Origin: Neomelitea salexigens DSM 19753
GTDB taxonomy: Bacteria > Pseudomonadota > Gammaproteobacteria > Pseudomonadales > Spongiibacteraceae
Reading direction: 5' to 3'
DNA length: 63,190 nt
Assembly (NCBI RefSeq): GCF_000422345.1
Contig: NZ_AULP01000014.1
Span: 1-63,190 of the forward strand
Notes under the pieces: model-generated
Database searches by the model: none
Told to the model about the DNA's origin: nothing
The model's input: only the letters and a program-made list of their open reading frames with translations
Program-made: the position numbers and the translations under genes
Part shown: positions 14,860 through 62,836 of the stretch, one piece after another
How positions within the stretch are numbered: the first letter of the stretch is position 1
How the letters are laid out: every line of letters starts with the position of its first letter

Positions 14860-15689
14860 TACTCAACCTCTCCGTACAGCGGGCGATAGCTCATTGGCTG
14901 GTGTTGACGCTGGGCATCAATGGCTTCGCTAATTTCACTGCTTGTGTACATACCGGCATTCCAGGTGGCGGACATCGCCAGCGATGACGAGAAGTGCATA
15001 TCGCGACCTTCTATCAAGGTGCGCTTCACACCACTTAAGGCCAGCGGCGACAGGTTTAATAAACGCTTTGCCATTGCCTGTGCGGTGGCGTCCAATTCCT
15101 CGGGGGCGCTAGGTGCGGCACTCAGCAATTGCAATTGCTTGGCCTCGGCGGCGTCGATACGTTCGCCGGTCAGCGACAGGCGCGCCGATGCCGATTCACC
15201 ACAGAGGTAGGTCAGGCGCTGGATGGTGCCCAGGTCGCACATAATGCCGATGTTGGTTTCATGGATAGAGAAGAACGCGCTGCTGTCGGCCAGGCGCAGA
15301 TCGCAGGCCGCGAATATCGCCAGCGAGCCACCAATGCAAGCGCCGCGCGCCACACCAATAACCGGCATCGGCAGCGCTTCAAGACGGCTGATAACCGCCT
15401 GCAAATACAGCACCTTTTCTCGTACCCAATGGTTGTAGCGGGCGGGATCATCGCCTTTGCTCACATTGAGTTCGGCCAGGTAATCCACATTCATACCACC
15501 GCCGAAATGGCGGCCTTTGGCATCCAGTATCAGCACTCGGCAGCCGCGATCTTGCTTGAGCTCACACAACAGTGCGTCAAGCTCCTGCCAAAACAAGCGG
15601 TTATAGGCATTGCCCTTGCACTGGGTATCCAGCGTGAGGCGGTAAAGACCGCCCTCAGTGCTCAGGGAAAAATTCTGCCAGTCGCTCAT
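14859..15689 (-). CDS. Crotonase-family protein, dienoyl-CoA-isomerase-like
   Basis: A 276-residue crotonase. Oxyanion-hole segments are RHFGGGMNVDYL (about 60) and GACIGGSLAIFAACDL. The catalytic region reads HETNIGIMCDLGTIQRL: the Glu and Asp are 8 residues apart and followed by GTxQRL, matching the Glu196/Asp204 arrangement of delta3,5-delta2,4-dienoyl-CoA isomerases and differing from simple hydratases. It would act on an acyl-CoA derived from the operon's substrate. Its start overlaps the P450 stop by 4 bases. Confidence 0.85.
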   Translation of the reverse strand: MSDWQNFSLSTEGGLYRLTLDTQCKGNAYNRLFWQELDALLCELKQDRGCRVLILDAKGRHFGGGMNVDYLAELNVSKGDDPARYNHWVREKVLYLQAVISRLEALPMPVIGVARGACIGGSLAIFAACDLRLADSSAFFSIHETNIGIMCDLGTIQRLTYLCGESASARLSLTGERIDAAEAKQLQLLSAAPSAPEELDATAQAMAKRLLNLSPLALSGVKRTLIEGRDMHFSSSLAMSATWNAGMYTSSEISEAIDAQRQHQPMSYRPLYGEVE

Positions 15690-18324: not shown

Positions 18325-18365
18325 ATCCACCTGAATATCCGTCTCTGTTTGTTATTGTTGGGGCG

Positions 18366-47116: not shown

Positions 47117-48412
47117 CTACAGCTCGTCGCCTGAGGGCGCCAGACCATTGCCGCGGTAGCTTTGCTCGCTGTCGCCAATACGCACCAGGCTGTCGTGCAA
47201 ATACGACAAATGCGGATGGCCGCCAAGCAGGGTCAACAGCGCCTGAGTATTGTTGTTTAGGTAGTACTCCATCCATGCCAGCGAGTAGTTCGCGGCAATT
47301 TCGCGTCCCCAGGTTGAGGTGGGCAGCAAGGGATAATTAGTGTGCTGCGCATGACTGGCTGCCTCGGCAACAATAAAGGCGCGGTCGCTGCTCAGGCTGT
47401 CGTAGAGCGGGCGCACCACGGCGGGGTTCACAAACGGCAGTGGCGCAATGGGGCCATCGTGATCGCCGGTTTGGATCATCACCGGTACCGGGCTGGCGGT
47501 GACCGACTCGAATACTGGCGCCGCCGCCACAACCGCGCGAACGCGAACCGGGTTGGGCTCGGCGGCATCGGCGGCCTCTTGTTCCTGCACGCGCAGCGCC
47601 GCAGCCGCGCCCATGCTATGGCCAATCACGCCCAGCCGGTCGGCATCCAACGCGGCGGCCACGGGAGAGTCTTCAAACAAGTAGCGAATGGCGTCTTGGG
47701 CATCGTGCAGATTATTGTCTGGGTCGGACTCGCCGGCATCATCCGAGCGGCCCTGGCCGCTGAAGTCGAAGGCGAACACCACATAGCCATTATCGGCGAA
47801 CAGGCGGTGCCACCAACGATACATGGCGGTGTTGGTGTTTAAGCCCTGCAGGGCAACAATCACCGGGAACGGCCCCTGCGTAGGCGGTACCAAACCCTGT
47901 TTGGGCAGCACGATTTCGCCGTGCAGACGGGTGCCGTAGCGGTTATTAAATTCCACCGGCACCAGCGCCACATTGGGGTTTTCGTAAGGGTGACCGTACC
48001 AGTGGTAAGCGTGCTCAATGCGCGAGCCATCCTGCCCCTGTGCCAGGGTTGATCGCACCATGTGCTCGACAATCACCGGGTCGCTAATATCGTTAATGGT
48101 GTAGCCCAGGGCAACGGGGTCGAACAGGCGGGCGGCGACATCGCGTGGCAGGGCCGCTGACAGCAGCGACAAATTAGTGATCAATGGCGCCAATTCCTCG
48201 GGCGCAGCCGGGGGGTCTTCACCGGGTTGCGAGGCCGGCCACACCCGAAGGCTGTTGCCTGAACCTGCACTACCGCTATTACTACTACTGCTGCCACCGC
48301 AGGCTACAAGGGAAAGAATGAGTAAAGGAACAACCAAACCACGAAGAAGCTGTTTTTTCCAACACACGAGTTGGAAACACGTGTTGACAATACGGTAACT
48401 GGAGACGCTCAT
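47117..48412 (-). CDS. Alpha/beta-hydrolase lipoprotein
   Basis: A 431-residue exported hydrolase. A hydrophobic segment ends in lipobox LSLVAC followed by GGSSSSNSGSAGSG, a flexible linker. The hydrolase core has VIVALQGLNTNTAMYRWW (oxyanion region), nucleophile elbow GVIGHSMGAAAA, TGDHDGPI (acid region) and ASHAQHTNYP (His). It resembles dienelactone/PAF-acetylhydrolase-type esterases tethered to the envelope. The N-terminal stretch before the lipobox is unusually long, so the start may be downstream. Confidence 0.8.
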   Translation of the reverse strand: MSVSSYRIVNTCFQLVCWKKQLLRGLVVPLLILSLVACGGSSSSNSGSAGSGNSLRVWPASQPGEDPPAAPEELAPLITNLSLLSAALPRDVAARLFDPVALGYTINDISDPVIVEHMVRSTLAQGQDGSRIEHAYHWYGHPYENPNVALVPVEFNNRYGTRLHGEIVLPKQGLVPPTQGPFPVIVALQGLNTNTAMYRWWHRLFADNGYVVFAFDFSGQGRSDDAGESDPDNNLHDAQDAIRYLFEDSPVAAALDADRLGVIGHSMGAAAALRVQEQEAADAAEPNPVRVRAVVAAAPVFESVTASPVPVMIQTGDHDGPIAPLPFVNPAVVRPLYDSLSSDRAFIVAEAASHAQHTNYPLLPTSTWGREIAANYSLAWMEYYLNNNTQALLTLLGGHPHLSYLHDSLVRIGDSEQSYRGNGLAPSGDEL

Positions 48413-48547
48413 AGAAACTGCCAAGAAATGCACATGGAATTACACATTGTACACAACGCGGCGTAGTTATTGGGCATACCGAAAATGGAAAGCATCTCGC
48501 TGGCTTTCGATCAACATACGAAGAAGGGTAATTTCTCCCGACACCGA

Positions 48548-48571
48548 AGGGCGACATCAAGATAGCGCCCT
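48548..48571 (-). terminator. Weak stem-loop after the ferredoxin reductase gene
   Basis: AGGGCG / CGCCCT arms (48548-48553 and 48566-48571), 15 bases downstream of the reductase stop on the minus strand. There is no clear T run, so it is only a candidate terminator. Confidence 0.35.
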
Positions 48572-48585
48572 ATTTCACACGGACA

Positions 48586-49818
48586 CTATCTAGGGTCGAA
48601 AAATACGTCTTTTAGATCAACTGTTTCATCCACTACCTTTAATGGATCCGCCGTTTTTCCCTCACTTAAAAATCGCTTGGCCAATAAAAATGCCTTAGGT
48701 TGGTTTATCGCATCCACAGCCAAAAGTGTATCGCCACTAAAATAGAAAGCAGCGAAGCTGCGACCACTTTTCGGATCACCACGTAAGACCACCTTGTCAA
48801 AACCAGCGCAAGATCCGGCAATCTGCAGTTTTACATCGTATTGATCAGACCAAAACCACGGCAAGGCACGATATGGCTGATACTTACCACATATTGTCCT
48901 TGCAGCAACCCTGGCCTGATCATTGGCATTTTGCACTGACTCCAAACGCAGGGTGGTTTTATAGATCGGATTGTAATGGAGGGTGCAATCACCCGCGGCA
49001 ACGATATCCTCATCACTGGTTTGGGCAAACTCATCTACAACAATGCCATTGTCCACATCTAGTCCAGCCTCTTCTGCAAGCCCAGTCGCCGGGGAAACCC
49101 CTATACCAACCAATACCAGGTCGGCCGGAATGTAACTGCCATCGGCCAGTTGAACGCCGGTCACAGAGCCTTCCCCCGCGACTCTATCAATGGACACATC
49201 TGTGAGTACCCGAGTGCCCTCTTCGCGATGCACCCTGGCATAGAATTCGGAGATCTCTGGCGATGTCACTCGAGCCAGTACTCGCGGCAATGCCTCTAGT
49301 ACTGTCACGTCCATGCCAACGGCCCTTAACGACGCTGCAGCCTCAAGGCCAATATAGCCACCACCGATAACGACCGCTGACCGCCCATTGCCAATATACT
49401 TACGAATTTCATGAACATCTTGAAGGTCACGCAGGTAACACACTCCCGGCAAATGAATGCCTGGAAGTTTAATTCTCCGTACGCTGGCACCGGTAGTTAA
49501 GGCCAGCTTGCTATATGACAGCTCACGCCCGTCTTCGAGAGCTATTTTTTTATCCACGCGGTCAATTTTTAGTACACGCGCCCCAAGCACCACATCAATG
49601 TCAGCCTTCTTATAAAAATCGGCTGGACGAATTAATATTTCGCTACCCTCTTTTTCACCATTCAAAGCACTCTTTGAAAGTGGCGGCCGATGATACGGCA
49701 GGGATTCTTCGGCGCTAATAAGAGATATTTTGCCAGACCAACCTTCCTGCCTTAGTGACGCAGCCAGGGTCGCACCCGCGTGGCTACCGCCAATAATCAA
49801 GCAATTATCTACAGACAT
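48586..49818 (-). CDS. FAD-dependent ferredoxin reductase (putidaredoxin-reductase type)
   Basis: A 410-residue reductase: FAD loop LIIGGSHAGATLAASLR, YHRPPLSK, NAD loop VVIGGGYIGLEAAASL at about 150, VLVGIGVSPATGLAEEAGL and AAGDCTLHYN. It passes electrons from NADH to a 2Fe-2S ferredoxin for a P450, matching rhodocoxin and CYP153 reductases. The ATG at 49818 has GGGGG 5 bases upstream. It ends the leftward arm of the CYP153 locus, 13 bases after the isomerase-like gene, and probably serves the ferredoxin at 54800. Confidence 0.92.
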   Translation of the reverse strand: MSVDNCLIIGGSHAGATLAASLRQEGWSGKISLISAEESLPYHRPPLSKSALNGEKEGSEILIRPADFYKKADIDVVLGARVLKIDRVDKKIALEDGRELSYSKLALTTGASVRRIKLPGIHLPGVCYLRDLQDVHEIRKYIGNGRSAVVIGGGYIGLEAAASLRAVGMDVTVLEALPRVLARVTSPEISEFYARVHREEGTRVLTDVSIDRVAGEGSVTGVQLADGSYIPADLVLVGIGVSPATGLAEEAGLDVDNGIVVDEFAQTSDEDIVAAGDCTLHYNPIYKTTLRLESVQNANDQARVAARTICGKYQPYRALPWFWSDQYDVKLQIAGSCAGFDKVVLRGDPKSGRSFAAFYFSGDTLLAVDAINQPKAFLLAKRFLSEGKTADPLKVVDETVDLKDVFFDPR

Positions 49819-49831
49819 AGGTACCCCCAAT

Positions 49832-50311
49832 TTAAAAGCGATTGCCGGGCTTAGAGAGCAACACGATGACTACCACATATATCAATGAGACAGCTCCCAA
49901 TAACGCGGGAAAGAAAGCCAGTGCACCTGACAGCGATGCCGCACCCAGCGCGTTGCTTTGCAGTGTAAGGCCATGATTCGGGGCGAACATGCCAAATACA
50001 TAGAAGCAAAAATTCCCCCAAATGGCGATTGAGCATCCTAAAAATATTTTTCTGCTTGAATCGCCATCTACGCCCAACAATCTAACCGACGAGCCTATAG
50101 ATATCGCCATTAATGCATTCATAAGCATTCCAGTATGTACCGTTCTCCAGCCCTCGGTCGTGCCAGGAATGTCAACGGGAATGTGTAAGGGAATCGGACT
50201 AAGCGAAACCCCACCTATCATTGAAAAAATTAGCGTAAACCCAGAAATTAAAGCGACTAGCAGCGCCCAAAAACCTTGCCGAACCAGCCGGCAGCTGTAA
50301 AAATCAGTCAT
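49832..50311 (-). CDS. Styrene-oxide-isomerase (StyC)-like membrane protein
   Basis: A 159-residue protein with four transmembrane helices. It strongly resembles styrene oxide isomerase: IPGTTEGWRTVHTGMLMNALM corresponds to the StyC segment VPGSPEGWARAHSGPALNGMM, and NFCFYVFGMFAPNHGLTL to NVGFYLFSNFSPNRGLTF (StyC recalled from memory). The residues I recall as His58 (heme-b ligand), Asn64 and Tyr103 in StyC fall here at His59, Asn65 and Tyr104. Known members use ferric heme for epoxide-to-aldehyde (Meinwald) isomerisation. It lies between a secreted-protein gene and the ferredoxin reductase gene. Substrate unknown. Confidence 0.78.
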   Translation of the reverse strand: MTDFYSCRLVRQGFWALLVALISGFTLIFSMIGGVSLSPIPLHIPVDIPGTTEGWRTVHTGMLMNALMAISIGSSVRLLGVDGDSSRKIFLGCSIAIWGNFCFYVFGMFAPNHGLTLQSNALGAASLSGALAFFPALLGAVSLIYVVVIVLLSKPGNRF

Positions 50312-50337
50312 GCCAACATCTCATTATTTACGCTTAT

Positions 50338-50751
50338 TCAAAAAAATAATTCATTGATAGAAATTACGTTGACCAGAGCATCGGGGGGCAACAGTAGCTC
50401 AATAATGAACAAGGGGTCAGTTGCCGGAAGCGACTCACTAGCTGCAAGGTTTTGGTTTCCAAGGACTACCGCAACCAGCCCCTCGCTAATCCTCAGCGAC
50501 TCATCAACACCTCTAATAACCGGTATGCCTCTGCCGTCAACAACAGGGAGGTCTTCCACCAAAACGAGGTCACTTAACACCGGGATATCGCGGCCAATAA
50601 ACAACCCATCTACCTGGGACAAAACACCCACCGGTATTAAGGAGCCCAGCGAACCGCCACTGACGACAGGAATACCCATACTACTCGCAGAATTTGCTGA
50701 ACTTAGTAAAAAAATTGTTATAAGCGTATAAATATAATTTTTTATTTTCAT
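50338..50751 (-). CDS. Small secreted protein of the CYP153 locus
   Basis: A 137-residue protein with a signal peptide (IYTLITIFLLSSANSASS). The mature part is rich in Val, Ile, Leu, Gly and Asp and has no Lys (DIPVLSDLVLVEDLPVVDG; GLVAVVLGNQNLAASES). It begins 37 bases after the TonB receptor gene and precedes the isomerase-like gene by 26 bases. Length, export and composition parallel the 10836-11261 protein, also next to a TonB receptor in a P450 operon. No family recognised; substrate capture is a guess. Confidence 0.65.
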   Translation of the reverse strand: MKIKNYIYTLITIFLLSSANSASSMGIPVVSGGSLGSLIPVGVLSQVDGLFIGRDIPVLSDLVLVEDLPVVDGRGIPVIRGVDESLRISEGLVAVVLGNQNLAASESLPATDPLFIIELLLPPDALVNVISINELFF

Positions 50752-50788
50752 TTTTATAACCCTATTATCAAATCATAATAAATCGATT

Positions 50789-53290
50789 TTAGTAACGATA
50801 TGTCATTTCTAAACCGTAGGTTGCCGGCGCGCCCTGTTGGTAATAATCGAACCCGAAACCAGCCTGCAGATTAATCGCGTAACTATCGTATTTAGTTTCA
50901 GTGATGTTTTTTCCCCAAATAGCAATAGTGTAGTCGTCATTGGAACTAAACCAGGTAAACCGCGCATTGTATATTGCGTAGGCATCCTGCTTTATATTTT
51001 CGTAGCCAATTTTGTCGTTGTAAGCGCTATACCATTGGTCGTCTTGGTAATTACCATTCAGATTCATACTCAGGTAGCCAGCGTTATTGCTGAATATTTC
51101 CCAATCGATTGATACGTTTGCGCTGATCTTGGGTGCTGAAATCAACTCATTACCAGAGAGATCCACAACATCATCGTCATCGTTAACCGTTTGCACGTTT
51201 GATAGTTCCAGTTCGGTATATTCCGTCTCAAGAATTCCCATACCTAGCTGGACGGTAAGCGCTTCCGTCATCGCGAAAAACATTTCAGATTCAAAGCCAA
51301 TGATCTTAGAACCACCCGCGTTTTCAAGAAAGTTAGACACCCCGACTACGTTGATAAATTGTTGGTTGGTGTAGTCGTAGTAAAAGAACGCGCTATTGAT
51401 GCGAGCGCGCCGATCCCAAAAGTCAGCTTTAATGCCTATTTCATAAGCATCCAGGAATTCAGGAGCGGCATAGGCGTCTTCAAATTCACGCTCTTCGTAA
51501 TACACGCCAGCATTGAAGTTCCCCGCTCTGAAGCCTTTGCTATATGAGCCATATACCATCAGGGAATCATTCAGACGGTAGTCCATACCTATTTTTCCGG
51601 TCCATTCTTTTTCGTGAGCACTCAGCGGGGTCGCTGACTCCTCGGTGTAGGGACCGTGGGTATAGCCAGTTTGTGCCGTTAGCAAAAGGTCATTCACACT
51701 TATTTCTCCGGCGAGGAGCTCTTGTATCAACACCCCAGGCTCAAAGGGGCTTTGCCCCGCTACATTTGCTGGAATGAAGATATTATCAACACCCGTATTA
51801 TTCCCTGGAACGTAGGTACCCCTGGGCGATCCGTCATAGCCCACGCGTGAGATATTTAAATAGGGGAGGTCTATCTTGTCGTCGGTATAGCGTACGCCGA
51901 AATCGATACCAAAGTCCGCGGTGACGTTCCAACGCATCTGCGAATAGAGTGCAAAGCTCTCTTTCTCAGTTTCCATTTTTTGGTCGAGCGCACCAAAATC
52001 CAGTAGATATGGATAGTAACCCCCAACCCCTGGGAAGGTAGCTGCTACACGCGTATCCGGCGGCGTTTCATACAATCGATAAACGTTGTTTAGCTGTTGA
52101 TCTTCGAACTGGTAGTAAGCGCCCGCTATCAGATCAAAATCCTCTTTAAACGTCGTCGATATCCGTAGATCTTGGCTAAATGCCTGGGTAGCGACCGCCC
52201 AATCGATTTCGAGAAGCCCATCAGGACTACCATCTACATTTTGCTGTTGCGCATAATCATTGTCGGTGTAAGACGTAACCGAGGTAACCGTAAAGGCATC
52301 ATGGATATAATCTATTTTATGCACGTACTGGTCTAAATTAACCACTAAAGCACCAGTGTAGTTATCCTCAACCTCGTAATAGTCTAAGCCCCTCGCAGGC
52401 CGGGAGTAGCCGGTATTGTCGATATATCCATTGTTAGGCTGATCGTAGACACCGACCCCAGACGTCTCTAACGCAGTCACCAATGCCGGATTATTTGCCA
52501 ACCTGCCACGCGGTTCATTGCGACTGGGGCTACCCAAGGCGTCGTTTCTTGCCTTGGTATACTTGAAGACCATATTGATATGATCTGTCATATCATAGTT
52601 AAGTACTAGGCGCGCACCCTGGAAATCCTGCTGAGATAGATCAGGTCCGCCAAGCGCATTTTTATAATAGCCGTCGCGACGCGAATAAGAGTAAGCAAGC
52701 CTCGCAGCCAGCTTATTTTTGACTAACGTACCCTCTACACCGTAATCGCCTTTATGGCTGTTGTAGTTCCCAACTCCCTGCTTAGCATCGAAGTGAAGAC
52801 CATCGTCGATCTGCGGAGTTTTCGTAACAATATTGATAGCTCCACCCGTAGTATTCTTGCCGTACAGTGTTCCTTGAGGACCGCGCAATACCTCCAACCG
52901 AGCTACGTCAAAAAAACTCATCCCATGGGTATACACGGCACCCATATATGCTTCGTCGTTATACACACCTATTGGGCTTGCTTGGTTTGAGCTGTAGTCC
53001 GACATGCTAACGCCGCGAACCGAAAAAATCGGCTGTACTTCTCCGTAAGGGCCACTAACTTGCATATTTGGCACCTGGGCCGATATGTCATTAGCGCTAG
53101 AAAATCCAAATTTTTCCAGTTGATTCTCCGACATACCGGTAATTGCGATTGGTGTGTCTTGCGTGCTCTCAGATTTTTTCTGAGCTGTAACAATCACCTC
53201 CTCGAGCATAGGAGCAGCGACTGCTGTACTCCCAACACTAAGCAGACCAATACTAATAGCACTGCCTAGCAATAACTTCCGCGACTCCAT
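50789..53290 (-). CDS. TonB-dependent receptor of the CYP153 locus
   Basis: An 833-residue receptor: signal peptide (LLLGSAISIGLLSVGSTAVAA), TonB box MLEEVIVTAQKK, plug with FSVRGVSMSDYSSNQ and RLEVLRGPQGTLYGKNTTGG, barrel ending GLEMTYRY. It begins the leftward arm and presumably imports a hydrophobic or poorly soluble compound oxidised by the P450. The ATG at 53290 has GGGAG upstream; the 6-codon longer frame starts at a TTG inside that region. Confidence 0.9.
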   Translation of the reverse strand: MESRKLLLGSAISIGLLSVGSTAVAAPMLEEVIVTAQKKSESTQDTPIAITGMSENQLEKFGFSSANDISAQVPNMQVSGPYGEVQPIFSVRGVSMSDYSSNQASPIGVYNDEAYMGAVYTHGMSFFDVARLEVLRGPQGTLYGKNTTGGAINIVTKTPQIDDGLHFDAKQGVGNYNSHKGDYGVEGTLVKNKLAARLAYSYSRRDGYYKNALGGPDLSQQDFQGARLVLNYDMTDHINMVFKYTKARNDALGSPSRNEPRGRLANNPALVTALETSGVGVYDQPNNGYIDNTGYSRPARGLDYYEVEDNYTGALVVNLDQYVHKIDYIHDAFTVTSVTSYTDNDYAQQQNVDGSPDGLLEIDWAVATQAFSQDLRISTTFKEDFDLIAGAYYQFEDQQLNNVYRLYETPPDTRVAATFPGVGGYYPYLLDFGALDQKMETEKESFALYSQMRWNVTADFGIDFGVRYTDDKIDLPYLNISRVGYDGSPRGTYVPGNNTGVDNIFIPANVAGQSPFEPGVLIQELLAGEISVNDLLLTAQTGYTHGPYTEESATPLSAHEKEWTGKIGMDYRLNDSLMVYGSYSKGFRAGNFNAGVYYEEREFEDAYAAPEFLDAYEIGIKADFWDRRARINSAFFYYDYTNQQFINVVGVSNFLENAGGSKIIGFESEMFFAMTEALTVQLGMGILETEYTELELSNVQTVNDDDDVVDLSGNELISAPKISANVSIDWEIFSNNAGYLSMNLNGNYQDDQWYSAYNDKIGYENIKQDAYAIYNARFTWFSSNDDYTIAIWGKNITETKYDSYAINLQAGFGFDYYQQGAPATYGLEMTYRY

Positions 53291-53333
53291 TATTATTATC
53301 TCCCGCAACTTTAGATATTATGATTTATAACCT

Positions 53334-53354
53334 CACGCAAGATACGCTTGTGCG
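53334..53354. promoter_or_regulatory. Imperfect palindrome between the receptor and AraC-type regulator genes
   Basis: CACGCAAG-ATACG-CTTGTGCG, 6 of 8 positions symmetric, in the 249-base divergent gap and 44 bases upstream of the receptor start. It could be a regulator site. No comparable copy was found before the ferredoxin gene. Confidence 0.3.
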
Positions 53355-53539
53355 TTTATGAATAGCCGCCATTATTATTCAAATCAGGTCAAGCTATTGC
53401 CCGTCACCAAAGGTACTTACACGATAACTACCAAAGCGGGCATCACCGCCATATCGGTAAATCACAATCCTCTGGACTCTTTAACGCTCAGTGTTTATAT
53501 TCATTTCCCGCCATCCGCAGAAAAATAGACACGATAATA

Positions 53540-54568
53540 ATGACGACAGCAACGCTCCTCCCTATCGATGGTTCAACCTTCTCTATCTCCTTACTGGACT
53601 TAGGAGAAAATTTTTTTGAACACAGAAAAGTAGATGTAAAAAATTTATACGACCGCTGCGAGATCACAGCCGATCAGATTAACCGTAGCGATAGCTATAT
53701 TTCAGGCTGGCAACTACGCGAGATGCTCCGCAGCTGTCGAGACATCGCCATTCCGGGCCAACCACTTTCCGTCTTACTTTCGGAGTTTGCGCCGATAACG
53801 GTACCTGGCGGTATGTTTGGATTAGCATCCTTCACAGCCAAAACAGTGGATCAGGCACTGAAATTAATGGTTGACTACTCACATACCGTAATGCCCGCAT
53901 ATCACTTCGAAAGAATTGATAGCGGCGGAAAGTGCCACATAGTTATGCGTCCGGTCATCGATTTTGGTGATGTACAGCATTACTTAGATGAGGTTGTTGC
54001 AGGCTATTTTTTAAACCTGCGATATTTTTGTAATTTGCCTTTGCCTGCCCCAAGAATTCATCTGACTCATTGCATTGAAAATGATATTTCCCGGTATGAA
54101 TATCATTTCAAAGCGACCTTTGCTTTCTCAAAGCGCATTATTGAGGTAATTTTCGACAACCATCATCTAATTCAACACCTTCACACCCATAACCAATCCA
54201 CGTTTGAGCAGGTCTACGCTAGTTTAAAAACCGCTACCCCACCGTCCACGACGTCATTATCCAGTAAAGTAAAAAACCTTCTTCGGCAACGACTCACTAA
54301 GGGCTTATCGATACATATCGCTCCTATTGCCGAACAAATGCATTATTCAGAGCGCACGCTCGCGCGCCACCTACAGAGCGAAAACACATCATTTCTTGAA
54401 TTAAAACAACAAGTTTCGATCGAACATGCGAAGTTTTTACTAGCCAGCACCGACGATCCAATTTGTAAAATATCGCACGCTTGTGGCTATAACAGCGACT
54501 CCAATTTTTCACGCGCCTTCAAAAATTTTACCGGCAAAACACCCAAGAGATTTCGTCAAGATCAATAG
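53540..54568 (+). CDS. AraC-family transcriptional activator
   Basis: A 342-residue regulator. The N-terminal domain (about 20-205) is of the OruR/Arabinose-binding type (VPGGMFGLASFTAKTVDQALKLMVDYSHTVMP). The C-terminal AraC DNA-binding region has two HTHs: IAPIAEQMHYSERTLARHLQSENTSFLEL and the CGYNSDSNFSRAFKNFTGKTPKRFR signature. AraC regulators of this type activate alkane CYP153 operons; here it lies between the two arms of the locus. Substrate-dependent activation of both is likely (inference). Confidence 0.9.
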   Translation: MTTATLLPIDGSTFSISLLDLGENFFEHRKVDVKNLYDRCEITADQINRSDSYISGWQLREMLRSCRDIAIPGQPLSVLLSEFAPITVPGGMFGLASFTAKTVDQALKLMVDYSHTVMPAYHFERIDSGGKCHIVMRPVIDFGDVQHYLDEVVAGYFLNLRYFCNLPLPAPRIHLTHCIENDISRYEYHFKATFAFSKRIIEVIFDNHHLIQHLHTHNQSTFEQVYASLKTATPPSTTSLSSKVKNLLRQRLTKGLSIHIAPIAEQMHYSERTLARHLQSENTSFLELKQQVSIEHAKFLLASTDDPICKISHACGYNSDSNFSRAFKNFTGKTPKRFRQDQ

Positions 54569-54799
54569 GCTTAAAACCGTTGATATTGCCTGCTCTCCTC
54601 CTTATATATTTCAAATACTTTATCCGTAGTCCAAATCGGCGCACAATTTTTCGTTCCATCCAGATAATTTCTCTCCTTGAGTTCCAACAGGCTGTGCATG
54701 CTGTCGTCTTATGAACAGGAATGGACTGAAAATGACAAGTCGTTCCAACCTATATTTCTTTCGACAATATCAGCATTACCCAAAATAAGGAGAACGACG

Positions 54800-55120
54800 T
54801 TGATTGAACTCACTTTCATTGAACATAACGGCGAAGTACATAACGTACGCGCTGCACCTGGTACCAATCTAATGCAGGCTGCGCTGGATAACAACGTCCC
54901 AGGTATTGATGCTGATTGTGGTGGTAGCTGTGCCTGCGGCACATGCCACGTTTTCATCGATACTAGCTGGATGGACAAAGCCGGCAAGCCCAGCGAATCG
55001 GAGTGTGCAATGCTGGAAATGACCCCAGAAAAAAACGAAATGTCCAGGTTAGCTTGCCAAATAACTGTTGAGACGCCTTTAAACGGATTGGTTGTAAAAC
55101 TTCCAGAATTTCAGATGTAG
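54800..55120 (+). CDS. 2Fe-2S ferredoxin (CYP153 redox partner)
   Basis: A 106-residue adrenodoxin/putidaredoxin-type ferredoxin: IELTFIEHNGEVHNVRAAPGTNLMQAA, cluster ligands C-x5-C-x2-C in CGGSCACGTCHVFI, and the fourth Cys in RLACQI. It shuttles electrons from the reductase to the P450 encoded 17 bases downstream. The TTG start at 54800 has AGGAG 7 bases upstream and fits the family length; an upstream ATG would add 41 residues without family character. Confidence 0.9.
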   Translation: MIELTFIEHNGEVHNVRAAPGTNLMQAALDNNVPGIDADCGGSCACGTCHVFIDTSWMDKAGKPSESECAMLEMTPEKNEMSRLACQITVETPLNGLVVKLPEFQM

Positions 55121-55137
55121 CTCATCAGGAGATAGTA

Positions 55138-56415
55138 ATGGCAAATCAGCTAGACCCACAAAATAATACCTTGCCGGATGCGACCAGTGTTCCCTTAGAT
55201 AGAATCGATCTCAGCGATCCGCGTCTTTATTCACAACACAGGTGGCCGGAATACTTCCGGCGCGTTCGTGACGAAGATCCTGTGCACTTTCTAGAGGACA
55301 GTCCATTCGGTCCCTTTTGGTCTATTACTCGTTTTGAGGATATCGTTGCCGTAGACACCAATCATGAGGTTTTCTCTGCTGAACCTTTTATTATGATCGG
55401 TGACCCGGAGCCCGACCTCCCGCTAGAAAATTTTATTGCGATGGACCCGCCAAAACACGACGTTCAGCGCGCAGCGGTTCAACCAGTCGTGGCGCCGCGG
55501 AATTTATCGGCAATGGAGGGCCTCATTCGCGAAAGAATCGGCGTGATCTTAGATAATCTGCCGCTCAATGAAAGCTTTGACTGGGTATCTCGAGTTTCCG
55601 TCGAGCTAACCTCGCAAATGCTGGCAACGATTTTTGACTTTCCTTATGAAGATCGTCATAAGTTGCCGTATTGGTCTGATATTGCCACAGGCGCCCCCGA
55701 ACTGTCGGGAGGCACCGCCGATAAAGAAGAGAGGAATGCGGCACTCCAAGATATGGCAGAAACGTTTTCGAAAATGTGGTTTCAGAAAGCGGCGCTAAGA
55801 GAAGCCGGACATGAACCCACCTTCGATTTAATTAGCTTAATGGAAGCTAATGCCGACACCAGAGATATGATCAATCGCCCTGCTGAGTTTCTTGGCAATT
55901 TAGGCCTGTTAATCGTCGGCGGCAATGATACAACTCGCAATTCGATCACAGGTAGTGTTCTAGCCATGAACATGTTTCCAGGTGAGCTCGAGAAACTTAA
56001 GCATAATCCGGATCTAATCCCCAGCATGGTTTCCGAGATTATTCGTTGGCAGACCCCCTTGTCCTATATGCGCCGCATAGCTAAATCTGACTTCAACCTC
56101 AATGGCAAATTGATCAAGAAAGGCGACAAGGTCGTTATGTGGTATATCTCCGGAAACCGCGATGAAAGAGTGATCGACAATCCTGATAAGGTAATTATTG
56201 ATCGGCCTCGAGTGCGTCAACACCTATCATTTGGTATGGGAATTCACCGCTGTATGGGTAATCGGCTTGGCGAGATGCAGCTTCGAATTACCTGGGAAGA
56301 GATACTCAAGCGATTCGATAATATAGAAGTTCTTAAACAGCCAGAGAGAGTACATTCAAATTTTGTGAATGGTTATGTAAATATGCAAGTTAAAGTGATT
56401 CCTAAAGCCTCGTAA
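55138..56415 (+). CDS. Cytochrome P450, CYP153-type alkane/alkene monooxygenase
   Basis: A 425-residue P450 with strong CYP153 features: ENFIAMDPPKHDVQR (about 100), LIVGGNDTTRNS (I helix), SEIIRWQTPLSYMRRIA (ExxR in EIIR) and the heme loop FGMGIHRCMGNRLGEMQLR (about 360). CYP153 enzymes hydroxylate terminal carbons of alkanes and several epoxidise terminal alkenes and styrene. Its own ferredoxin lies upstream and a GMC oxidoreductase downstream, as in known CYP153 operons. Exact substrate is unknown. Confidence 0.92.
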   Translation: MANQLDPQNNTLPDATSVPLDRIDLSDPRLYSQHRWPEYFRRVRDEDPVHFLEDSPFGPFWSITRFEDIVAVDTNHEVFSAEPFIMIGDPEPDLPLENFIAMDPPKHDVQRAAVQPVVAPRNLSAMEGLIRERIGVILDNLPLNESFDWVSRVSVELTSQMLATIFDFPYEDRHKLPYWSDIATGAPELSGGTADKEERNAALQDMAETFSKMWFQKAALREAGHEPTFDLISLMEANADTRDMINRPAEFLGNLGLLIVGGNDTTRNSITGSVLAMNMFPGELEKLKHNPDLIPSMVSEIIRWQTPLSYMRRIAKSDFNLNGKLIKKGDKVVMWYISGNRDERVIDNPDKVIIDRPRVRQHLSFGMGIHRCMGNRLGEMQLRITWEEILKRFDNIEVLKQPERVHSNFVNGYVNMQVKVIPKAS

Positions 56416-56525
56416 TTATTATAACTAATCACCCTCCCCTTACGCCTCTATGTGATCGGATCTGGCACGCTTATTATCACACAGGATTTTTCCTGAGAGG
56501 CTTTTTTACTATTTTGGCCGATATT

Positions 56526-58139
56526 ATGAATAAGTTCGATTATGACTATATTATCGTCGGTTCGGGTTTTGGTGGCAGTGTTAGCGCATATAGATTAAGC
56601 GAAAAAGGCTATAGTGTACTGGTCATCGAACAAGGAAAGCGATGGACTCCCGAGAATTTACCGTCGACGAACTGGAAAATTTGGTCTTACCTTTGGCAAC
56701 CAATACTAGGTTTGCACGGCTTTCTCCGGCTTCGTCTTTTTAAACATGTGATGGTCCTTCATGGCAATGCCGTAGGTGGAGGCTCTATCACCTATGCCCA
56801 AACTCTGCTTGTTCCCCCCGATTCAGTTTGGAATGATGGTGGCTGGTCGTCTCTTGATGATTGGCAGAATATCATGCCAGCGTACTATGCCATGGCCAAG
56901 AAAATGTTAGGCGTCACGCGCAATGAACGCGGAGCGGCGGCGGATGAAAAACTTCGGCAGATGGCAAAGGCGGCAGACGTAGAAGATAGCTTTTACTATA
57001 CCGATGTTGGCGTTTTCTTCGGAGAAAAGCACGACGCACCTGGCACTGAATATAGCGACCCTTATTTTGGCGGCAAGGGGCCCTCTCGCAATTCCTGTAT
57101 CGGTTGCGGTGGTTGTATGGTGGGCTGCCATTATAATGCGAAAAACAGCTTAGACAAAAACTACTTATACCTGGCTGAACATAATGGCGTTCAGTTGCTT
57201 CCTGAAACGCGTGTTGTGGATGTATCACCACTGGGCACCTCCGGTGACGGTGAAGAGGGCTATCGTGTAAAGACGGTTAACAGCTTTGCTTTTTTTTCAA
57301 AAAAACCGAAATTCTATACTGCGCGATCGGTAATTTTTTCAGCCTCATCCCTAGGTACGCAAAGCTTGTTATTTGATCTTAAAGACAAGGGCTCGCTACC
57401 GAATATTTCCTCTGACCTAGGTAATCGCGTTCGTACTAACTCAGAATCAATATTAGGAATTCGTTATCCCGGTACAGATGAGGACTTGTCAAAAGGTATC
57501 GCTATAGGTTCAGGTATCCACATAGATAAGAATACCCATATTGAAGCAGTTCGCTATCCCGACGGCTCCAACTTACTAAGCGGGCTTTTCACCGTATTGA
57601 CTGGTGGCCGACCCGGTGTTGTGCGAATTCTATATTGGCTCAAAGCAATAATAAAACTACTATGCACCCAGCCTATCAGTGGCTTGCGAAGTCTACTTCC
57701 ATGGCGATTTTCACGAGAGACCGTGATCTTTCTGGTTATGCAAACCATCGAAGGGCATATCAACATGCGCTGGAAACGTCGCTGGTATTGGCCCTTTTCT
57801 AAGAGCCTTAATAGTGAGGGGAAGCCTATCCCTACATTTATTCCGGAAGCCAATGATTTCACCGGCAAAGTCGCTCAGGCTACAGGGGGCATCGGACTAA
57901 GCTCATTATCGGAAATTGCATTTAACGTTCCTACGACCGCACATTGTATGGGCGGATGCGCCATGTCTGACTCACCCGAGACCGGCGTGATCGATGCAAA
58001 AAACCGCGTTTTTAATTATAAAAACCTCTACATCATCGACGGCTCTATGCTGTCCGCCAATCTAGGCGTCAACCCTAGTCTGACCATTACCGCTCTGGCA
58101 GAACGTGCCATGAGCTTCATTCCTAACAAAGTACAGTAG
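56526..58139 (+). CDS. GMC-family oxidoreductase (cholesterol-oxidase-like) with Cys-rich loop
   Basis: A 537-residue flavoprotein: FAD loop IIVGSGFGGSVSAYRL, LHGNAVGGGSITYA, and the C-terminal GMC region HCMGGCAMSDSPETGV...YIIDGSMLSANLGVNPSLTITALAERA. At about 190-210 a C-I-G-C-G-G-C-M-V-G-C segment looks like a 4Fe-4S motif and is seen in this GMC subgroup. It likely oxidises the alcohol formed by the P450, or another hydroxylated intermediate. No ribosome site is clear; the ATG at 56526 or a TTG 12 bases earlier may be the start. Confidence 0.85.
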   Translation: MNKFDYDYIIVGSGFGGSVSAYRLSEKGYSVLVIEQGKRWTPENLPSTNWKIWSYLWQPILGLHGFLRLRLFKHVMVLHGNAVGGGSITYAQTLLVPPDSVWNDGGWSSLDDWQNIMPAYYAMAKKMLGVTRNERGAAADEKLRQMAKAADVEDSFYYTDVGVFFGEKHDAPGTEYSDPYFGGKGPSRNSCIGCGGCMVGCHYNAKNSLDKNYLYLAEHNGVQLLPETRVVDVSPLGTSGDGEEGYRVKTVNSFAFFSKKPKFYTARSVIFSASSLGTQSLLFDLKDKGSLPNISSDLGNRVRTNSESILGIRYPGTDEDLSKGIAIGSGIHIDKNTHIEAVRYPDGSNLLSGLFTVLTGGRPGVVRILYWLKAIIKLLCTQPISGLRSLLPWRFSRETVIFLVMQTIEGHINMRWKRRWYWPFSKSLNSEGKPIPTFIPEANDFTGKVAQATGGIGLSSLSEIAFNVPTTAHCMGGCAMSDSPETGVIDAKNRVFNYKNLYIIDGSMLSANLGVNPSLTITALAERAMSFIPNKVQ

Positions 58140-58268
58140 ATTAAGAGGTGAAATATTTTTATTTAACCAAAGCGAAAGCTAAGTTTATAAACGCAACGGA
58201 TATGGTGGAGATTACCCGACTGTTCTCTTGGTTCGCAATGCTATGGCTGGCTAACCGGCCAGTCATAT

Positions 58269-58291
58269 AAAAGGGGCGGCCCAGGCCGCCC
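58269..58291 (-). terminator. Rho-independent terminator of the DUF1348 operon
   Basis: Stem GGGCGGCC / GGCCGCCC (58274-58281 and 58284-58291) with a 2-base loop. On the minus strand it is followed by CTTTTAT. It lies between the DUF1348 gene and the convergent GMC gene and could also act on the latter. Confidence 0.75.
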
Positions 58292-58303
58292 TTATCGCTA
58301 TCC

Positions 58304-58780
58304 TTACAGCCCCAGCTCGCTCAAGCCCGGGTGATCATCAGGGCGACGGCCCAGCGGCCAGTGGAACTTGCGCTCGGCCTCGCTAATCGCCATGTCATTA
58401 ATGCTGGCGTGGCGGTAGGCCATCAGGCCGCGCTCGTCGAACTGCCAGTTTTCATTGCCGTAGGAGCGATACCACTGACCGCCGTCGTCGCGCCATTCGT
58501 AGGCAAAGCGCACGGCAATGCGGTTGCCGCTGTGGGCCCACACTTCTTTAATCAGGCGATATTCCTGCTCGCGCTGCCATTTGTTAGCTAAGAACGCGAT
58601 GATTTCTGCGCGGCCCACCGGAAAGTCGGCGCGGTTTCGCCATTGAGAATCTTCAGTGTAGGCCAGCGCTATAGCCTCGGGGTTACGGCTGTTCCAGGCA
58701 TCTTCTGCCTTGCGGGTTTTCACTACCGCTTCTTCGTAGCTAAACGGGGGCAGCGGTGGGCGAGTATTGGGGTCGGTCAT
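58304..58780 (-). CDS. DUF1348 (NTF2-like) protein
   Basis: A 158-residue NTF2-fold protein of DUF1348, recognised by [43 protein letters not shown] and the [22 protein letters not shown] segment with [26 protein letters not shown] at the end. The family is widespread but has no established activity. The ATG at 58780 (third of three) has AAGGAA 6 bases upstream. It follows the PNPOx-like gene directly. Confidence 0.88.
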
Positions 58781-58816
58781 CATCATTTCCTTGTGCTTGG
58801 CTATTAGGGTTGGCAT

Positions 58817-59404
58817 TTACTGTTGGTTGGGGTTTACGCCGAGTTCGCGCAAGCGCTGCTCGACCATGCGCTCAATATCCGCGTCGGTATAACGGGGGGT
58901 AATGTGCTGGGGGCAGTTCCAGTCAAAGGCGGCAATGTGTATCAGCACCCCGCGCTCAATGCGGGCGCGGTAGTTCGGGTCCAGCAAGGCCTGTAAGCGC
59001 GCATCATCTGGGTCGACAAACTCCAGCCGCCCCGCCACTTTCAGCCGGCGGCGATTTGGGTAGTCCATCAAAAACAGCGACACGCGATTATTACTATGCA
59101 CGTTGCCAGCACTGATGTATTGGCGATTGCCACGGTAGTCGGCAAAGCCCAGCGTCGCCGCGTTCAACACTTTGATAAACCCCAGCGGGCCACCGCGATG
59201 CTGCACATAGGGCCAGCCCGACTCGCTAACGCTGGCCATATACAGGCTGTCGCGCTGACGAATAAATTGCGCCTCCTTGTCGCTGAGCAAATAGTTGTAG
59301 TCCTCGCCCTGCTCCATTCGCGCATAGGTGTCGCGGCTGCGGCCCCGGCTTTGCAGCGCTTTGGCGGCGGGGCTAAACATTAGCTTGGCGTAGCGGTGTC
59401 CCAT
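58817..59404 (-). CDS. Pyridoxamine-5'-phosphate-oxidase-like flavin-binding protein
   Basis: A 195-residue split-barrel flavoprotein-like protein: SDKEAQFIRQRDSLYMASVSESGWPYVQHRGGPLGFIKVL, ISAGNVHSNNRVSLFLMDYPNRRRLKVAGRLEFV and DWNCPQHITPRYT. This subgroup binds FMN or heme and is often linked to stress or thiol genes. It lies in a leftward unit (AhpD-like, PNPOx-like, DUF1348) divergent from a LysR regulator. Confidence 0.87.
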   Translation of the reverse strand: MGHRYAKLMFSPAAKALQSRGRSRDTYARMEQGEDYNYLLSDKEAQFIRQRDSLYMASVSESGWPYVQHRGGPLGFIKVLNAATLGFADYRGNRQYISAGNVHSNNRVSLFLMDYPNRRRLKVAGRLEFVDPDDARLQALLDPNYRARIERGVLIHIAAFDWNCPQHITPRYTDADIERMVEQRLRELGVNPNQQ

Positions 59405-59464
59405 GGTGCTGCCTCCGGTGGCCCCTTGCCCTCGACTGCCAAGGGGCCGTGGCTGGATAAACGC

Positions 59465-60019
59465 TTAGGCAGCGCCTCGGCTCAGACTCAGTTCTACCGT
59501 GGGAAAGTCGATCTCCACCTCGCTGGCCTTGCCGATGAAGTTGGTCAGAATGTTCATGCCAACGTGGGTGATAATCTCCACCACCTCCGCGTCGCTGTAG
59601 CCTGCGCTGTGCAGCTCGGCGATCTCGGCGGCGGTGACACTGCCACTGTGTTCGACCAGCGTATTGGCAAACTTCACTGCCACCGCGGCTTTGGCATCCT
59701 GGCTGCCACCGGCGCGATTGGCGGCAATTTCGTCGCCGTTCAAACCGGCCTTGCGACCGATGGCCGTGTGCGCCGACACGCAGTACTGGCAGGCATTTTG
59801 TTGGGCCACCGCCAGAGCGATGCGCTCGCGAGTAACCGGCGACAACTCGCCCTCACCGGCAATACCGTGCAGGCCGAGAAAGGCGCGCAGCGCCGCTGGG
59901 GAATTGGCAAAGACTTTCAGAAAATTTGGCACCATGCCCAGCTTTTGTTGAATCGCATCGAGCAACTCCTGCTGCTCGGCACTGGCGTTGTCATGGTCGA
60001 TAATAGGTAAACGGCTCAT
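59465..60019 (-). CDS. Carboxymuconolactone-decarboxylase / AhpD-like protein
   Basis: A 184-residue AhpD-fold protein with the redox motif CQYCVSAH (CxxC...H) at about 85 and the GMVPNFLKVFANSPAALRAFLG opening. Such proteins have thiol-based peroxidase activity or unknown roles. It is the first gene of the leftward unit and is divergent from the LysR gene, which probably regulates it. Confidence 0.88.
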   Translation of the reverse strand: MSRLPIIDHDNASAEQQELLDAIQQKLGMVPNFLKVFANSPAALRAFLGLHGIAGEGELSPVTRERIALAVAQQNACQYCVSAHTAIGRKAGLNGDEIAANRAGGSQDAKAAVAVKFANTLVEHSGSVTAAEIAELHSAGYSDAEVVEIITHVGMNILTNFIGKASEVEIDFPTVELSLSRGAA

Positions 60020-60126
60020 CGTGGCATCCTCAAGTAAGTGGTTTGGTGCAGCTACCGCCGTAACTGCCCGACACCGCTACCTTGCCGAATTTCACACAGA
60101 AGAAGAATCCGCGTACATTGCAATTC

Positions 60127-60149
60127 ATTATTACTTTAATCGGAATAAT
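60127..60149. promoter_or_regulatory. Candidate LysR-type binding site
   Basis: ATTATT-N11-AATAAT inverted repeat in the gap between the AhpD-like gene and the lysR gene, 13 bases before the LysR start. It has the general T-N11-A form; the proximity suggests autoregulation. Confidence 0.45.
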
Positions 60150-60162
60150 AGCGCGCGAGCTT

Positions 60163-61071
60163 ATGGATAAATTTCACTTGCTTAAGGTGTATGTGGCCGT
60201 TGCCGAGGCCGAGGGCTTTGCCGCCGCCGCGCGGCGTTTGGAGCTGTCGCCCCCCGCCGTTACCCGCGCCATTGCCGCACTTGAAGATAACCTTGGCGTA
60301 AAGCTGTTGCAGCGCAGCACCCGCTACGTGCGCACGACCGATATCGGCAGGCGTTATCTGGACGATGCCAAACGGATTCTTGCCGAACTGGAGGCCGCCG
60401 ACCACACCGCAAGCGGGATCAACACCGAGCCCCAGGGCCAGCTTACCGTCACCGCGCCCGTGCTGTTTGGGCGGCGCTTTATTACGCCCAGTATTGTTCG
60501 TTACCTGGAGCGCTATCCCAAAACCACGGTAAATGCGGTGTTTCTCGACCGCGTTGTTAACCTGCTGGAAGAAGGGATTGATGTCGGCATACGCATAGGC
60601 GAACTGCCGGATTCGTCGCTGCGCGGCCGCAAAGTCGGCAGCGTGCGTATGGTGGTCTGCGCCTCGCCGGACTACTTGCAGCGCTGCGGCCGCCCACAAC
60701 GCCCGGACGATTTGCGCAAGCACAGCTTGATCGCCTCACTGGCGGTTGGTGAAAACCAGCACTGGCACTTTCAAGCGCCGAACAAAGCCCGCGCGCAACA
60801 GCGCATTACTATTGCGCCGCGACTCACCGTCACAACGAATGATGCCGCCGTTGAAGCGGCCGTGAATGGTTTGGGGATTACCCGCGTATTGTCCTACCAA
60901 GTGGCCGACGAGGTCGCGGCAGGCAAGCTGGAAATACTGATGGAAGACTATCAACCGGCCGCCAAACCGATCACCATTCTCCACCGGGAAGATCGCAATC
61001 CAGCGGTAAAGGTTCGCGCCTTTATTGACATGTTAGCTAAAGAACTTGCAGGCCATTCAGCTCTGCATTAA
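60163..61071 (+). CDS. LysR-family transcriptional regulator
   Basis: A 302-residue LysR regulator: HTH FAAAARRLELSPPAVTRAIAALEDNLGVKLLQRSTR at the N-terminus, then the two-lobed substrate-binding domain. The start at 60163 is inferred from the family alignment (MDKFHLLKVYVAVAE); a 27-residue extension is rejected. It probably controls the divergent AhpD-like operon. Its stop overlaps the EamA gene's stop region by 4 bases. Confidence 0.9.
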   Translation: MDKFHLLKVYVAVAEAEGFAAAARRLELSPPAVTRAIAALEDNLGVKLLQRSTRYVRTTDIGRRYLDDAKRILAELEAADHTASGINTEPQGQLTVTAPVLFGRRFITPSIVRYLERYPKTTVNAVFLDRVVNLLEEGIDVGIRIGELPDSSLRGRKVGSVRMVVCASPDYLQRCGRPQRPDDLRKHSLIASLAVGENQHWHFQAPNKARAQQRITIAPRLTVTTNDAAVEAAVNGLGITRVLSYQVADEVAAGKLEILMEDYQPAAKPITILHREDRNPAVKVRAFIDMLAKELAGHSALH

Positions 61072-61973
61072 CGCGCTCGACCTTGTCTTCGTAGCGGCTG
61101 CAAGGCAATGATATTTCCGGCCAGCATTAATGTACCGCCCAATAGTATTGCCCAGTCAAAAGCCTCGGCGTACAGCACCACACCCAACAGCGCGATCAAT
61201 GGCAGACGCAAAAAGTCCAGCGTGACCACCACACTTACCTCGGCATAGTGCATGGCCTTACTCATGCAAAAATGTGCCGACAAGGCCATAAGGCCTATCA
61301 GCAATAGCCACCCCCACTGCTCGGAGTCAGGCCACTGCCAGTGGGCAATCGACAGGGCAAAACCAATGGGTAACTGCACCAAACACATATAAAAAATAAT
61401 CGTGAACGGCGAGTCGGCACCGCCGAGTGCTTTCGTGCAGGTGTGAGAAACGGCGTAGCCAATGGCCGCCGCCAACACAATAAGCGACGCGCTATCGACA
61501 ATGCTGTAGCCCGGCTGAACAATCGCCAACACACCCAGCAGGCCCATGACTATCGCCAATAATTTTCGGCGCGTTATCGCCTCGTTTAAGGCAACGGCAG
61601 CAATCAGCATCGTCCAAAACGGCACGGTAAATTCCAGCGCAAACACCTCGGCCAATGGCAGTAAACCAATGCCGACAAACCAACCGTACTGGCCGCCAAA
61701 GTGAAAAACATTGCGCAGCACATGCAAGCCCGGGCGCTGACTGCGCAGCCGCAGCGATGATGACGCTAAGTGATTTGAGCGGGAAAACCTGGCCACCAGC
61801 ATAATCAGTAACAAACACAGCAAACCGATAGCGCTGCGAAAAAACAGCTGCTGGTGTACGGCAATTTCGCCGCTCAGCTCACGCGCCGATATCGCCATTG
61901 TGCTGAACGACGCCAAGGCGCCAGCCATCCAGGCCGCCGCGCGGGGCGTTTGTTGATGATGAAATGCGTCCAC
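61068..61973 (-). CDS. EamA/DMT-family transporter
   Basis: A 301-residue membrane protein with ten helices arranged as two EamA repeats (residues about 15-150 and 160-290), including the FRSAIGLLCLLLIM and LPLAEVFALEFTVPFWTMLIAAVALNE segments. Substrate is unknown; amino acids, nucleosides or drug efflux are typical. It is convergent with the LysR gene. Confidence 0.88.
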   Translation of the reverse strand: MDAFHHQQTPRAAAWMAGALASFSTMAISARELSGEIAVHQQLFFRSAIGLLCLLLIMLVARFSRSNHLASSSLRLRSQRPGLHVLRNVFHFGGQYGWFVGIGLLPLAEVFALEFTVPFWTMLIAAVALNEAITRRKLLAIVMGLLGVLAIVQPGYSIVDSASLIVLAAAIGYAVSHTCTKALGGADSPFTIIFYMCLVQLPIGFALSIAHWQWPDSEQWGWLLLIGLMALSAHFCMSKAMHYAEVSVVVTLDFLRLPLIALLGVVLYAEAFDWAILLGGTLMLAGNIIALQPLRRQGRAR

Positions 61974-61989
61974 TGCCGTCTTTGCGTCC

Positions 61990-62715
61990 TTAGGTTAGCG
62001 GGGCAGTATATCGCGCTATTGCCGCAAGCTCTTCCTTACTCAACAAACGGCTTTCACCCAGGGCTAAGTCCGCCAAGGCTACCGGCCCCACCGACTCGCG
62101 ATGCAGTACCAACACCTCGTTATCAAAAGCGCCGAACATCCGCTTCACCTGGTGGTACTTACCCTCGGTAAGCGTTAGCCGCGCCGTAGTGGCCGACAGA
62201 ATCTGTAACTGCGCGGGCTGGGTGGTAATGCCCTCATAGGCAAAATAAACACCGCGCTGAAAGGCGTCGATATAGTCCTGGGAGAGCGGCGTGGCCACCT
62301 CCACCCAATACACCTTGGCGAGCTTCGTTTCCGGCAAACTGATACGCCGCGACCAGCCGCCGTCATTACTAAGCAACACCAAACCCGTGGTATTAAAATC
62401 CAAGCGACCGACGATATGCAGCTCCGCCTTGCGCGGGTGATCCAATAAATCAATCACTGTGCGATGGGAATCATCCTTCGTCGCGCTCACCACGCCCTTC
62501 GGCTTATTCAAGGCAATGTACAACGGCGTGTCTGCTTGCAGGCACAGCCCGTCCACCTCAACGCGACTAAAGCGATCAATACGTTGGTTAATCGACTGCG
62601 CCAGCTCCCCATCCACCACAATGCGCCCCTGCGCCAATAACAGCCGCGTATCCGACATTGCGAAGGCAGTATGCTGGCGGATAAAACGGTCGAGGCGAGT
62701 CGTGTTGGCAGTCAT
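61990..62715 (-). CDS. rsuA: 16S rRNA pseudouridine(516) synthase RsuA
   Basis: A 241-residue RsuA-family enzyme: S4 domain RLDRFIRQHTAFAMSDTRLLLAQGRIVVDGE, catalytic Asp in GRLDFNTTGL, and the C-terminal EGKYHQVKRMFGA and LHRESVGPVAL. It converts U516 of 16S rRNA to pseudouridine. It is followed by the EamA gene after 16 bases. The region between it and the IS at 62837 holds no supported gene. Confidence 0.88.
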   Translation of the reverse strand: MTANTTRLDRFIRQHTAFAMSDTRLLLAQGRIVVDGELAQSINQRIDRFSRVEVDGLCLQADTPLYIALNKPKGVVSATKDDSHRTVIDLLDHPRKAELHIVGRLDFNTTGLVLLSNDGGWSRRISLPETKLAKVYWVEVATPLSQDYIDAFQRGVYFAYEGITTQPAQLQILSATTARLTLTEGKYHQVKRMFGAFDNEVLVLHRESVGPVALADLALGESRLLSKEELAAIARYTAPLT

Positions 62716-62836
62716 TCACTTATTATGGAGGTAGATGGAGTTAGGTACACGCGTCTGCGAGAGCCGCGCGAATGTATATTATTGAACTTACGGAAATGAG
62801 ATAGGCGGGTGCTAAAAACTTCACCCTATTTACGCG

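Follow-up and report, generated by a model that had tools for sequence, protein, structure and literature searches.

In the styrene oxide isomerase (SOI) of Pseudomonas, H58 is the heme ligand and N64, D95, N99 and Y103 are functional residues, the N99A and Y103A variants being inactive and N64A impaired, as given in the available part of the structure paper (PMC11374702). Cytochrome P450 monooxygenases of the CYP153 family have styrene, limonene and cyclohexene among their substrates in a review table, and the accessible text of that review describes a CypR-type AraC regulator that activates a CYP153 ferredoxin (fdx) promoter with n-alkanes (PMC8784404); the consulted text on CYP153A33 covers fatty-acid hydroxylation, not epoxidation (PMC9112060). 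As far as the open-access texts extended, no natural combination of CYP153 with SOI, or of SOI with the Pfam family PF10118, was found, SOI and CYP153 appearing together only in a review of artificial cascades. Here we describe a locus of Neomelitea salexigens DSM 19753 (positions 48586-58139) that encodes both a CYP153 enzyme and a 159-residue relative of SOI. The window, i.e., the whole stretch of DNA analyzed (63,190 nucleotides), is one whole contig (NZ_AULP01000014.1; G000:C13). Our preferred reading, put forward tentatively, is that the locus is an oxygenase and epoxide-isomerase module, with CYP153 in the place where relatives use a PF10118 protein, because the 159-residue protein is homologous to SOI, H58, N64, N99 and Y103 are kept in all 19 members of its clade, its gene lies 1-13 bp from that of a ferredoxin-NAD reductase (FdR), the genes share a low GC content, and the SOI gene is linked to CYP153 in related genomes.

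The SOI-related protein

By homology and phylogeny, the 159-residue protein (49832-50311, minus strand) is a true styrene oxide isomerase relative that belongs to a sister subfamily of StyC and not to StyC itself. A PDB search (E up to 10) returned two distinct sequences, both of them styrene oxide isomerases (30tw, 4.8e-17; 8pnu, 5.1e-15), and a Pfam search at E up to 0.1 gave no family. The StyC model NF045734 matched with an E-value of 5.9e-26 and 91.3 bits, under its curated cut-off of 150; a StyC from the same genus (L070) scored 250.3. The protein is 100% identical to its counterpart in Spongiibacter marinus DSM 17750 (L020). In a tree of 52 SOI-family sequences (62 less seven duplicates and three under 100 bits; two of the rows are StyC references), it falls in a 19-member clade (support 98/97), hereafter the window clade, apart from an 11-member clade (98/92) that holds the known StyC proteins. 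The tree program flagged long branches, including two of the 19 window-clade rows. Identification as a plain StyC was ruled out by the score (91 bits against 150) together with the separate clade.

The alignment places histidine at the axial heme ligand position (H58) in 52/52 rows, and H58, N64, N99 and Y103 are all retained in every window-clade member, the 159-residue protein included, which in Pseudomonas SOI numbering carries the changes D95 to A and R112 to H. As aligned, the active site of the window clade is mainly retained yet consistently altered, which argues for a sister subfamily rather than StyC. The "StyC-like" label given in the earlier note, a reading made from the sequence alone, thus holds for the SOI homology and the four retained residues; it fails on clade membership and on the StyC cut-off. 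The protein would be expected to bind heme and to act as an isomerase. SOI proteins have four transmembrane helices; a low-confidence structural model of the 159-residue protein (predicted local distance difference test score of 69) contains four helices, and its hydropathy exceeds 1.6 clearly in two stretches only.

SOI relatives are rare beyond the genus, occurring in 6/369 genomes of the class and 3/398 genomes of the phylum sample (the source genome is counted in both). A plasmid collection yielded five records, four annotated as StyC and one without annotation. At L034 (9961-10461; G023:C6) the SOI copy is apparently broken, with matches in two frames, one of which contains stops. Five loci (L069, L070, L071, L073 and L043) carry StyC and StyD-like genes and gave no tblastn match to StyA; L070 also encodes a PaaK-type AMP-ligase, a thiolase, an AraC protein and a 466-residue protein without a Pfam family (weak match to the flavin monooxygenase ArsO), which could be an epoxidase.

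Linkage of the SOI gene with CYP153

The P450 gene (55138-56415, plus strand) had been assigned to CYP153, and near full-length matches confirmed this: the best PDB match was 5fyf (1.7e-180, 603 bits, residues 11-423), followed by 3rwl, named CYP153A7 (1.3e-148, 498 bits, residues 15-420). Among 18 genomes of the genus 27 CYP153 matches were obtained, and the window gene was the sole one in the source genome (E <= 1e-60). Seven of the 27 are orthologues with at least 75% identity; of the remaining 20, the analysis of neighboring genes covered 15. A window-clade SOI gene lies within about 10 kb of CYP153 in four of the seven close orthologues (the window, G063, G148:C2 and G195:C3) and, in the stretches read, near none of the 15 others (Fisher p 0.005; 0.015 with the near-identical window and G063 counted once). 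Under random placement, the probability of at least three linked cases out of six is 6e-5. The earlier claim of a CYP153-SOI pairing, there left to a genome survey, is therefore supported inasmuch as the linkage is non-random in the genus; it does not extend to the SOI clade as a whole, whose commonest neighbor is PF10118 and not CYP153. Among the relatives read, the SOI-FdR pair behind a TonB receptor gene was confined to two genomes, that of the window and G063.

PF10118 as the usual partner of the window clade

A PF10118 gene lies near the SOI gene in 15 of the 19 window-clade members, making it the usual partner of the clade; the stretches L036, L140 and L149 are short, and missing neighbors there say little. 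In several relatives the window-clade SOI is accompanied by an aldehyde dehydrogenase (ALDH), an acyl-CoA ligase, a ferredoxin and PF10118, with the ALDH gene directly following SOI in several loci. This gene set follows the same logic as StyA-StyC-StyD. The association runs from SOI to PF10118 and not the reverse: the 18 genomes of the genus gave 63 PF10118 matches (62 over the cut-off), most of them not near an SOI gene. The source genome has three PF10118 genes, none inside the window. SOI-family genes beside or near PF10118 span several proteobacterial lineages (L030, 14817-17858; L033, 7608-10612; L026, 6868-8348).

Proteins of PF10118 are annotated as metal-dependent hydrolases. Our alignment and models indicate that PF10118 is probably an AurF-like diiron oxygenase family, for which an oxygenase role is suggested. 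The seven metal-ligand positions of the AurF/CmlI/DnfA diiron signature (E, ExxH, E, HxxxExxH), as described in the available part of PMC9478400, occur in 65/65 PF10118 rows (59 distinct), and in a model and structural search the predicted structure resembles the R2/AurF/MMOH fold. Against five PF10118 proteins the AurF model (PF11583) gave one match, of 12.8 bits (E 0.067; cut-off 29.6), the other four being unmatched.

Another SOI branch, linked to PF10118 in 7/7 cases, retains H58 and lacks N99 and Y103, which suggests that the heme site can persist after the substrate site of SOI is lost. PF10118-adjacent SOI relatives with H58 kept and N99/Y103 lost are found at L033 (7608-8126), L066 (228-746), L067 (1440-1925) and L075 (9558-10115).

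Gene organization and the low-GC island

All eight open reading frames (ORFs) of the region were found in the ORF list at the coordinates given earlier, and their Pfam and NCBIfam families bear out the gene inventory of the earlier note. The left arm (minus strand) consists, in order of reading, of genes for a TonB-dependent receptor (50789-53308; 839 residues; Pfam), a small protein (50338-50751; 137 residues, without a Pfam family, with an N-terminus that looks signal peptide-like by eye), the SOI relative and FdR (48586-49830; Pyr_redox_2 and Reductase_C). The spacers between these listed ORFs are 37, 26 and 1 bp, consistent with one operon; FdR may instead start at the ATG at 49818, giving an SOI-FdR spacer of 13 bp. 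Several relatives (L104, L107, L111 and L120) also have a homologue of the small protein after the TonB receptor.

The right arm (plus strand) encodes an AraC-type regulator (53540-54568; Arabinose_bd and HTH_18), a 2Fe-2S ferredoxin (54800-55120), CYP153 and a GMC oxidoreductase (56514-58139). The ORF list starts the ferredoxin gene at 54677; because 106-residue versions occur in two relatives, the TTG at 54800 is probably the true start. The gene ends 17 bp upstream of CYP153, so that the CYP153 operon has a ferredoxin partner. With the CypR model NF053784 the AraC protein scored 58.5 bits and so lies below the cut-off of 500. Besides its Pfam assignment, the GMC protein scored 1008 bits with NF058674 (ChoxAB cholesterol oxidase; cut-off 850), a model match that does not establish the substrate; oxidation of an alcohol would suit such an enzyme no less than a role in epoxide chemistry.

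The genes from FdR to GMC have a GC content of 44-50%, as against 57-61% for five measured flanking genes. The GC profile shifts near 48.4 and 58.2 kb, so that a single low-GC block (48400-58200) covers both arms, which look like one acquired island of foreign composition. A comparison with relatives in search of an empty insertion site gave matches to the HYD gene alone, in three of them, and no synteny dating the insertion was found. Just beyond the island, an alpha/beta hydrolase gene (47117-48433) matches the Pfam PETase family (PF12740); relatives of this hydrolase (~70%) occur in three other genomes, in different surroundings.

In the closely related G063 (L123, L031) a block of 9.3 kb (53437-62738) is inverted relative to the window. 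One breakpoint (53437) falls within the 231-bp intergenic region between the TonB receptor and AraC genes (53309-53539), and a search for repeats at both breakpoints revealed none of note. The two arms described earlier as diverging around AraC do so in the window; they are non-divergent in G063, and the divergent layout is therefore not essential.

Proposed route and points against it

The island would serve to take up and oxidize a hydrophobic hydrocarbon, which may be unsaturated. Uptake of this substrate would fall to the TonB receptor together with the small protein, the AraC protein would detect the substrate or a product of it, and FdR and the ferredoxin would pass electrons to CYP153. 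This enzyme may hydroxylate terminal methyl groups, the resulting alcohol passing to GMC for oxidation, and may also epoxidize C=C bonds. The 159-residue protein, as a putative membrane heme-b enzyme, would open the epoxide with its ferric heme and yield an aldehyde by Meinwald rearrangement, so that the alcohol and epoxide routes would converge on the aldehyde. Judged from the genes present, the route from alkene through epoxide to aldehyde is plausible.

In a wider form, SOI-fold heme proteins would carry out the second of two steps in a general module for unsaturated hydrocarbons, in which a ferredoxin-fed oxygenase forms the epoxide and the membrane heme protein converts it to the aldehyde. 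The usual oxygenase of such a module would be PF10118, replaced here by CYP153; we regard this generalization as possible and somewhat doubtful. The broader result is that SOI is associated with PF10118, and the CYP153 locus appears to be a variant of this arrangement.

One candidate named earlier for the next enzyme acting on the aldehyde, the ALDH at 16942, was rejected as a specific partner because its gene and that of a different P450 (15686-16951) overlap. In that part of the window (14859-18330) the overlapping pair of second P450 and ALDH genes is followed by an enoyl-CoA hydratase-like gene. A search of the source genome for StyA, run without a positive control, gave no match. For epoxide hydrolases only PF06441 was sought, with no match in the source genome and a match in one of 14 control genomes.

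Several observations weigh against the module reading. In the SOI relative itself, the D95 position is occupied by alanine in 19/19 window-clade members, and D95A substantially impairs the Pseudomonas enzyme according to the accessible text (PMC11374702). Position 112 is histidine in 15 of the 19, among them the 159-residue protein, and arginine in four; R111 of the Rhodococcus SOI, which we equate with R112 by our own numbering, possibly binds a heme propionate. To these are added the shortfall of the NF045734 score (91 vs 150 bits) and a poor structural model (score of 69, with unspecific matches in the structural search). As regards linkage, the 10-kb limit was chosen after the data were seen, the control CYP153 stretches cover ~9-10 kb per side and less near contig ends (L112, L119 and L121), a less similar CYP153 gene (G148:C1:119558; 63%) lies ~20 kb from an SOI gene, and for three of the seven close orthologues the stretches read contain no SOI gene. 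The low-GC island contains no ALDH or CoA ligase gene. Moreover, the window SOI might also serve a second system elsewhere in the genome, on contig C8, where another SOI gene is found with PF10118, ferredoxin and ALDH genes.

Alternative explanations

In the most serious rival reading, the locus is a conventional alkane hydroxylase cluster under AraC control, in which CYP153 delivers alcohol to GMC. The SOI relative would then be a passenger, would detoxify stray epoxides, or would assist the PF10118 system located elsewhere in the genome; we consider this reading a real possibility, if a doubtful one. Genes for a TonB receptor, an AraC-type protein, ferredoxin and CYP153 occur without SOI, in the stretches read, in G200, G192 (AraC match of 25% identity, on the opposite strand) and G197 (G197:C24, with GMC adjacent), so CYP153 does not need the isomerase. 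The n-alkane response of the CypR-type regulator (PMC8784404) and the second SOI with its PF10118 gene are also in line with such a cluster. Set against it are the 1-13 bp between SOI and FdR within the same low-GC block, the linkage repeated in 4/7 orthologues, and the catalytic residues of the SOI relative, which are kept and not decayed.

That this SOI branch has another heme function (lyase or dehydratase, electron carrier, or membrane anchor of an oxygenase) and performs no epoxide isomerization appears unlikely. The invariant alanine at D95 and the second branch that keeps H58 without N99 and Y103 speak for it, as does the anchor role already proposed for SOI itself in the available text of PMC12502698; N64, N99 and Y103 are, however, invariant in the window clade (19/19), and an ALDH gene directly follows SOI in several loci. 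A chance neighborhood, in which two unrelated hydrocarbon genes were joined by island insertion and later rearrangement, is very improbable given the linkage statistics and the low GC content common to both arms, even though the inversion in G063 demonstrates that the region rearranges and no synteny was found to date the insertion.

Comparison with known systems

If the module reading is correct, the existence of a conserved SOI branch that is linked to oxygenases and not to styrene would broaden the chemistry of SOI, PF10118 would gain a function, and a route from alkene to aldehyde, testable with few genes, would point to an unexplored breakdown of unsaturated hydrocarbons.

The locus resembles StyABCD of Pseudomonas sp. 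VLB120 (pSTY) and Rhodococcus opacus 1CP in combining an oxygenase with a small SOI-family membrane protein that has H58, N64, N99 and Y103 in common. It differs in that its oxygenase is CYP153 with ferredoxin and FdR instead of the flavin-dependent StyAB, and in that its SOI relative, which lacks D95 and R112, stands in a separate clade under the StyC cut-off; the island has no StyD. With the CypR-controlled fdx-CYP153 alkane clusters of Alcanivorax and Dietzia, as far as the available text describes them, it shares the AraC regulator beside ferredoxin and CYP153 genes, whereas in the window the SOI gene adjoins that of FdR, downstream of the genes for a TonB receptor and a small protein of secreted type, and the AraC protein scores under the CypR cut-off.

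The SOI-PF10118 loci of Spongiibacteraceae, Hydrocarboniphaga, Nevskia and Algiphilus contain SOI proteins of the same 19-member clade, in some cases with ferredoxin and ALDH; they carry a probable diiron protein where the window carries CYP153. PF10118 in turn is like the diiron N-oxygenases AurF, CmlI and DnfA in its seven-ligand signature (three histidines and four carboxylates) and R2-like model, and is distinguished from them as a separate Pfam family with ferredoxin neighbors at some of its loci.

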